Shown here: positions 2,733 through 3,672 of the stretch, piece by piece
How positions within the stretch are numbered: the stretch's first letter is position 1
How the letters are laid out: every line of letters begins with the position of its first letter
Assembly: GCA_903826575.1 (NCBI GenBank)
Contig: CAIKEU010000069.1
Coordinates: 62,001-126,000 of the forward strand
DNA: 64,000 nucleotides
Direction: 5' to 3'
From: an uncultured bacterium
Lineage (GTDB): Bacteria > Actinomycetota > Actinomycetes > S36-B12 > CAIYMF01
The notes under the pieces: generated by a model
Seen by the model: only the letters and a program-made list of their open reading frames with translations
The model's database searches: none
What the model was told of the DNA's origin: nothing
Made by a program: the position numbers and the translations under genes

Positions 2733-3197
2733 CTAGGCTCCGGAGGCACCCGTCGAACCCTGGGCGGGCGGTGGAGCAACATAAGACGATCCACCCGAAC
2801 TTGAGTTCGACGAGCTTGACGACTTCTTCTTTTTCTTGGTGGCTGACCCATTCGACGATGAGTACGACGACGATCCACTAGAAGAACTCGACGCACTACT
2901 CGACGAATGCTTCTTCTTTGACTTAGTTGCGGTGCCTTTGACGATGGCATCCGCCTGCTTTTGCAACGACGCCACAGACTTACGAAGGTTGGCCACTTGG
3001 GCCGCATTTGAATCGACCGCCTGCCGCAATGCGACCACCGTGGGGTCGACCGTGGCGGCAACCTTAGGCGTTGCTTTGATGCTAGACGCTGGCTGATGAC
3101 CTGCGGCCCACACGGTCGTTCCGGTAAACAGCGCAGCCGCCGTGGGAGCTACCAGTGCTGCAGTTGTCCAACGTGCTCGGGTTCCGCGATTAGTCAT
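2733..3197 (-). CDS. Secreted Ser/Lys-rich low-complexity protein ending in STGASGA
   Basis: 154 residues from the ATG at 3197, which overlaps the preceding gene's stop by eight bases. Order: an N-terminal signal or membrane segment (about 10-32), a short coiled-coil-like stretch (VALRQAVDSN to LQKQADAIV), then a Ser/Lys-rich disordered tail with KSKKK and KKKKK clusters, a Pro patch, and the terminus GSTGASGA. No domain is recognised. The tail motif [S/T]GA[S/T] is the core of the sequence in which ApbE attaches FMN in NqrB/NqrC/FMN-bind proteins, and apbE begins three bases downstream. That it is flavinylated is inference. It could also be a surface or wall-associated protein of other role. 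Confidence 0.7.
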   Translation of the reverse strand: MTNRGTRARWTTAALVAPTAAALFTGTTVWAAGHQPASSIKATPKVAATVDPTVVALRQAVDSNAAQVANLRKSVASLQKQADAIVKGTATKSKKKHSSSSASSSSSGSSSYSSSNGSATKKKKKSSSSSNSSSGGSSYVAPPPAQGSTGASGA

Positions 3198-3672
3198 CGT
3201 TGCCACCTTCGTTGTCACCATTAGAGCTCGAGGTCGAACCACTTGCACCGGTGGAACCGTGAGAGGTAGGAGCCGGCGATGCATAGTTCTTTGCTTTCGG
3301 TGCTGTGGCCTGCGAGGGAGGCGCCGACGACGAGTAGTCCACGGCCTGCTGAGTTGCGCGCTGCGCGTCGGCGGCCGCTGCGGCCGCGGCATCTGCCTGC
3401 GCCTGCTGGGCAGCCACTGCCTGAGCATGACGCGCCAAGCGCAACGCCTTCGCCGCTGCCTGTTCCTCAGTTTGAAGAGCTGTAGTTTGATCGGTCAGCG
3501 ACGCCAGTTGGCGCTCTAGGTCGGCAATAACTGCAGAGGTCGCTTGAGCATGGGCCACGTTCGATGCGGCGGGCGCGGCCGTCGGCATCCCCAAAGCTGC
3601 GGCCACCCCAGCGGTGGCAACGACCGCGGTGGCCGCCAGCCCTGTCGCCGCAAGACGACTGGTGCGCTTCAT
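3190..3672 (-). CDS. Secreted Ala-rich coiled-coil protein with a C-terminal STGAS motif
   Basis: 160 residues. The start at 3672 (MKRTSRLAATG) is chosen because GGGGAG lies six bases upstream and the following residues make a good signal peptide ending near AAPAASNVAHA. The middle (about 40-105) is a long Ala/Gln-rich helix likely to be a coiled coil. The tail is Ser/Pro/Gly-rich and contains HGSTGASGSTSSS before an acidic end (DNEGGNDD). It is the first gene of the operon with the neighbouring Ser-rich gene, apbE, the ferric-reductase-like gene and the nuoF-like gene. The shared STGAS tail in two otherwise different proteins suggests a functional site. No known domain; function unassigned. 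Confidence 0.7.
   Translation of the reverse strand: MKRTSRLAATGLAATAVVATAGVAAALGMPTAAPAASNVAHAQATSAVIADLERQLASLTDQTTALQTEEQAAAKALRLARHAQAVAAQQAQADAAAAAAADAQRATQQAVDYSSSAPPSQATAPKAKNYASPAPTSHGSTGASGSTSSSNGDNEGGNDD

Follow-up and report, generated by a model that had tools for sequence, protein, structure and literature searches.

Organization of the operon

The window analyzed here, a stretch of 64,000 nucleotides from contig CAIKEU010000069.1 of an uncultured member of the order Ca. Nanopelagicales (Actinomycetota), carries a tightly packed five-gene operon on its minus strand, in which two genes termed A and B are followed by apbE and by the genes for an MsrQ-like haem protein and a NuoF-like NADH dehydrogenase subunit. 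Gene A (positions 3190 to 3672; this and all following window coordinates are on the minus strand) encodes 160 amino acids and overlaps gene B (2733 to 3197; 154 amino acids) by 8 bases. The stop codon of B occupies 2735-2733, and apbE (1740 to 2729) starts three bases away, at 2729; its product is an FAD:protein FMN transferase (PF02424, E=2e-48) without a signal peptide. The gene for the MsrQ-like, or ferric-reductase-like, membrane haem protein (959 to 1747) likely starts at 1747, overlapping apbE, with the open frame beginning at 1810, and its homologues have 4 invariant His residues. The NuoF-like gene (1 to 962; PF01512, E=2e-31) runs past the start of the window.

On re-checking, the coordinates and sequence facts that the original prediction gave for A, B, and apbE hold, the three-base step from the second gene to apbE among them. 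That prediction had also stated that the operon has no FMN_bind gene, which agrees both with the profile matches and with a genome-wide FMN_bind search that placed no match inside the operon.

Proteins A and B

Protein A, which is secreted or anchored, comprises a hydrophobic N-terminus, a helix spanning residues 38-115, and a disordered tail. Protein B has a hydrophobic N-terminal anchor with a conserved Trp (W30), a helix at residues 52-92, and a disordered, Ser/Lys-rich tail with the motif at its end. In AlphaFold models built with homologue alignments, the helix of A has pLDDT values mostly >90 and that of B about 90, and each is followed by low-confidence coil to the end of the protein. 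The helices expected in both proteins from the sequence are thus recovered with high confidence, and the accompanying description of the pair as unstructured carriers fits the tails but not the long helix that precedes each of them. Signal peptides had been assigned to both proteins. This may stand for A, but the N-terminus of B is more like an uncleaved signal anchor: because the family as a whole retains the hydrophobic segment and its invariant Trp30, we read this N-terminus, from these sequences, as probably a membrane anchor rather than a cleaved signal peptide.

In A, HGSTGASG lies 16 residues from the end and is followed by a short Ser-rich, acidic stretch that ends in NEGGNDD; the predicted ApbE site is the 7-mer H-G-S-T-G-A-S (3241 to 3261), with Ser144 as the predicted FMN attachment residue. 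The C-terminus of B is QGSTGASGA, so its predicted site, Q-G-S-T-G-A-S (2742 to 2762), is close to the very end of the chain, with the predicted attachment residue, Ser152, only 2 residues from the C-terminus. Both the shared GSTGASG near the C-termini and the difference in sequence between the two proteins had been noted before, and we find the same: apart from the motif, A and B are unlike. Comparison with Pfam and NCBIfam assigned A and B to no family, yielding only weak, scattered coiled-coil or low-complexity matches, and no match to the FMN_bind domain (PF04205) was obtained for A, B, or their homologues.

Conservation of the tail motif

Related operons, metagenome assemblies being among their sources, supplied a homologue set of 43 A and 51 B proteins. 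The operons occur in the window's genus, in other families of its order, in about eight more families of its class, and in one genome of the phylum Actinomycetota outside that class, as well as in MAGs labelled Pseudonocardiales, Acidimicrobiales, Propionibacteriaceae, Cellulomonas, Microbacteriaceae, Chloroflexi (Chloroflexota), and Bacillota. About 50 related gene clusters retain the tail tip.

As a check on the original prediction, it had been proposed to look for the tail in homologues beside apbE, with homologues in the same operon that lack it as grounds for rejection. Where the DNA of the operon is assembled, proteins of the B family keep the motif. A strict [ST]GAS falls within the last 12-14 residues in 38 of 51, against a shuffle expectation of 0.55 (last 12 residues), and the relaxed form [ST][GKRHSAT][AGS]S, that is, [ST]xxS, is present in the last 14 residues of all 51, where shuffling would give 6.4. 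No tail-less B homologue was thus found, but some A proteins have lost the motif: it is present in strict form in the last 100 residues of 28/43 (2.9 expected by shuffle) and missing from 15/43. Among background open reading frames from the same loci, the strict motif occupies the last 14 residues in 11 of 2753 (0.4%).

In both A and B, conservation is highest in the motif. In an alignment of 24 A members the only invariant positions are Met1 and T141, G142, and S144 of the motif, and B has few near-invariant positions, the tail Thr and Ser being two of them. The extended tail consensus reads P-x-x-[H/Q/D/N]-[T/A]-x-T-G-A-S-[G], with linkers that vary in composition as well as length and a motif that keeps its place at the tip. 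Several lineages have tips other than TGAS, namely TKAS, TRAS, THAS, TAGS, TGGS, and TSAS. In L136, L137, L154, L155, L159, L162, and L167, where TAGS, TKAS, TRAS, TSAS, and TTAS are seen, the tip retains its first hydroxyl residue and its final Ser, and the Gly-Ala core is changed; such tips may mark ApbEs with altered recognition.

The published ApbE site is D-x-x-[S/T]-G-A-[S/T], in which a change of D to A has a minor effect, whereas flavinylation drops to half with G to A or A to V; seven residues are enough for ApbE, a terminus is the best location, and Ser is reported to be a poorer acceptor than Thr (PMC12052999). Proteins A and B of the window both have the [S/T]GA[S/T] core expected of an ApbE substrate and lack the Asp at position 1, which is H in A and Q in B. 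The full published 7-mer, as D-x-x-T-G-A-S, is present in both proteins in one family of the order (f6), with the A/B site pairs DATTGAS/DATTGAS and DTTTGAS/DTSSGAS, and drift of the core is shared by both proteins in the pair DTWTGSS/DTWTGSS. When the first motif residue of A is compared with that of B from the same genome, D goes with D in all 5 true D pairs, the two D/non-D pairs being non-motif matches in A; these five pairs come from close relatives, and the pairing statistic is not independent. Some A tails carry more than one site, with three full ApbE motifs in one disordered tail of L099 (G085) and two in that of L104 (G144), possibly forming a multi-flavin chain.

ApbE and its predicted electron transfer partners

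The ApbE encoded in the operon keeps the conserved blocks DLGGIGKG, EAGGD, and HHIIDPRTG, in keeping with its PF02424 membership. ApbE is usually exported, and cytosolic ApbEs are known; no clear signal peptide was detected in the ApbEs of tail operons. In a tree of 116 rows, the tail-linked ApbEs fall on one side of a branch with 100/99 support, and four Chloroflexota rows labelled as controls are on the same side. Two of these, L171 and L179, have tails by eye, with the tips TGASGG and TSASGKP; L172 shows no tail, and the sequence of L173 begins at apbE, leaving the upstream genes outside it. The automatic finder misses the tails of L171 and L179, and the contrast between loci with and without tails is thus approximate for distant ApbEs. 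A special active site in the tail-linked clade was considered and rejected: the segment AE..[ST]K, which replaces AD..[ST]T, is also present in other actinobacterial ApbEs and is therefore not specific to the clade.

In the MsrQ-like family, His 121, 135, 197, and 210 (open-frame numbering) are invariant in 21 homologues. PF01794 is matched by 6 of the 21 (best E=2.8e-6) and not by the window protein itself, and a PDB sequence search with the family profile returned only a weak match (E 0.51), to a 'FAD-binding FR-type domain-containing protein'. The NuoF-like protein has, in the longer reading of the gene and in its orthologues, the PF10589 4Fe-4S region, which together with PF01512 identifies it as an NAD-binding partner.

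Gene order and content vary in the more unusual loci. In MAGs of Bacillota and Chloroflexi (L166, L168, L170, and L171), the MsrQ-like gene comes before A, B, and apbE, with no NuoF-like gene detected in the vicinity; NuoF was likewise not detected near the cassette in L067, L140, L157, or L158. Distant groups of NuoF, MsrQ-like, and ApbE genes in the same order (L063, L064, L065, and L113) had no detectable tail motif.

Other ApbE substrates in operon-bearing genomes

Eleven of the 30 operon-bearing genomes have no FMN_bind protein. In five of these, G048, G054, G076, G081, and G085, which are 88-97% complete, the operon ApbE is the sole ApbE, and both ApbEs of G079 are of the tail-operon type. 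The search for known substrates covered FMN_bind, NqrB/RnfD, and DUF2271, with genome-wide DUF3570 outside its scope; in the 12 genomes tested, it found no NqrB/RnfD and no DUF2271 above the cut-off for that family. With a sole ApbE and no other tested substrate domain, the five genomes leave the tails as the evident substrate, and they count as 'orphan apbE' genomes as Meheust et al. use the term.

The genome of the window itself encodes, elsewhere, two FMN_bind proteins (L001 and L002 on contig C29, with YSGATYTS and IGGASYTS) and, on contig C68, a second ApbE. On this basis it appears to run two flavinylation systems.

Proposed flavin-tagged carriers and alternative explanations

On the comparative evidence, we consider it likely that A and B carry electrons on a natural flavin tag, their tails being predicted substrates of the operon ApbE, although attachment of FMN has not been shown. 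Flavinylation of the two proteins, its location with respect to the membrane, and the path of the electrons are all inferred, without biochemical data.

A reading that we find improbable, but cannot set aside, is that the tail goes unflavinylated and serves as a docking or sorting peptide for ApbE, the MsrQ-like protein, or a cell-wall enzyme, with A and B acting as scaffolds or maturation factors. The long helices of the two proteins could be scaffolding, the TKAS and THAS variants break the published core, and Ser is the weaker acceptor. A docking peptide, however, need not match the acceptor sequence of ApbE, with the D at position 1 found in one lineage, and the genomes in which this is the only ApbE would be left with no recognized substrate for it. 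More doubtful still is the possibility that A and B have some other role and that a canonical FMN_bind protein from another locus is the real substrate. Such proteins are indeed encoded elsewhere in the window genome and in relatives from its genus, but the window genome has a separate ApbE, and the 11 genomes that lack FMN_bind, five of which have this as their sole ApbE, do not fit this explanation. There is next to no room for an accident of Ser/Thr/Gly/Ala-rich low-complexity tails handed down from a common ancestor, for although the tails are rich in Ser, Thr, and Ala and shuffles yield a few matches, the linkers vary while motif and tip position stay, and a strict motif in 38/51 against 0.55 expected, in many families of the phylum, indicates at the level of sequence that the motif is not a chance product.

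Taking A and B as flavin-tagged carriers, the operon ApbE would take FMN from FAD and attach it to the final Ser of [D/H/Q/N]-[T/A]-x-T-G-A-S at the disordered tail tips. Because this ApbE has no signal peptide, FMN would have to be attached either while the proteins are still in the cytosol or by some route not yet known; the likeliest order, itself an inference, is that attachment in the cytosol precedes export, with the chain exported unfolded, as would be possible for a carrier without domains. Electrons would then most likely move from NADH to the NuoF-like subunit, to the MsrQ-like haem protein, to FMN on flexible arms outside the membrane, and finally to an external acceptor, with the NuoF-like protein as cytosolic donor and the MsrQ-like protein as membrane conduit, as in MsrQ-like flavinylation systems. 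In its fullest form, which we put forward tentatively and at slightly less than even credence, the proposal is of a separate class of carrier, disordered and free of domains, that has no cofactor site other than an ApbE tag at the end of its flexible arm. A signal-less ApbE would flavinylate it in the cytosol, and after export it would swing through the cell wall, from the MsrQ-like haem protein to ferric iron outside and back.

Relation to known flavinylation systems

MsrQ-like flavinylation clusters are common in Actinobacteria, with 31 clusters that include a NuoF-like protein, and some contain VIT1; assimilatory iron reduction has been proposed (Meheust et al. 2021, PMC8238504). The window operon has in common with these clusters the MsrQ-like membrane haem protein, apbE, and the NuoF-like protein, but where they typically encode a protein with an FMN-binding domain, it has the domain-less A and B (PMC8238504). 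To pass the filter of that survey, an ApbE had to have a signal peptide or a lipidation site, or a known substrate gene had to be present (PMC8238504), and we infer that the tail operons would have been dropped by it.

Substrates without FMN_bind are not unprecedented. DUF2271 and DUF3570 have [S/T]GA[S/T], are encoded beside orphan apbE genes, and have been shown to be flavinylated (PMC8238504); these, however, are domains of about 135 and 420 amino acids, whereas the site in A and B is at the tip of a disordered tail. FMN_red of Lactococcus, for which flavinylation has also been shown, resembles A and B in that its C-terminal extension is unstructured and contains one or two motifs, but it is a folded reductase with this flavin at its flavin pocket, and A and B have no such domain (PMC11334425). 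Flavin-tag (Tong et al. 2021), to the extent that it is described in PMC12052999, is a 7-amino-acid ApbE motif that is enough for flavinylation and works best at a terminus; it is an engineered tool, and the tails of A and B would, going by that description, be a natural equivalent used for electron transfer. Our literature searches for disordered or tail-borne ApbE sites found no matching description. Electron transfer based on flavinylation is thus known, and it is the form of the substrate, a disordered tail tip, that we have not found reported.

To our knowledge, every ApbE substrate described to date is a folded protein that holds its flavin in position. If our proposal is correct, covalent flavin works as an electron carrier without a binding pocket, on a disordered arm comparable in principle to lipoyl or acyl-carrier arms, and a class of substrate invisible to domain-based annotation is added. 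This would help to explain 'orphan' apbE genomes, 4% of the set of Meheust et al. having remained unexplained (PMC8238504), and would provide a testable, ready-made flavin-tag system that uncultured Actinomycetota perhaps use to take up iron.

A role in the reductive uptake of a metal, probably ferric iron, is weakly supported. Since most actinobacterial operons with checked neighbors have no metal transporter gene, this role is only a lead, with the transporters that do lie beside the cassette hinting at reductive uptake of iron or manganese. A VIT1 gene is found 90 bases upstream of A in a Microbacteriaceae MAG (L165, 2202-2912), ZnuA and ABC-3 genes precede the cassette in a Chloroflexi MAG (L171, 3-2103), and sequences similar to the metal transporters of the latter can be recognized by eye in L179 and L168.
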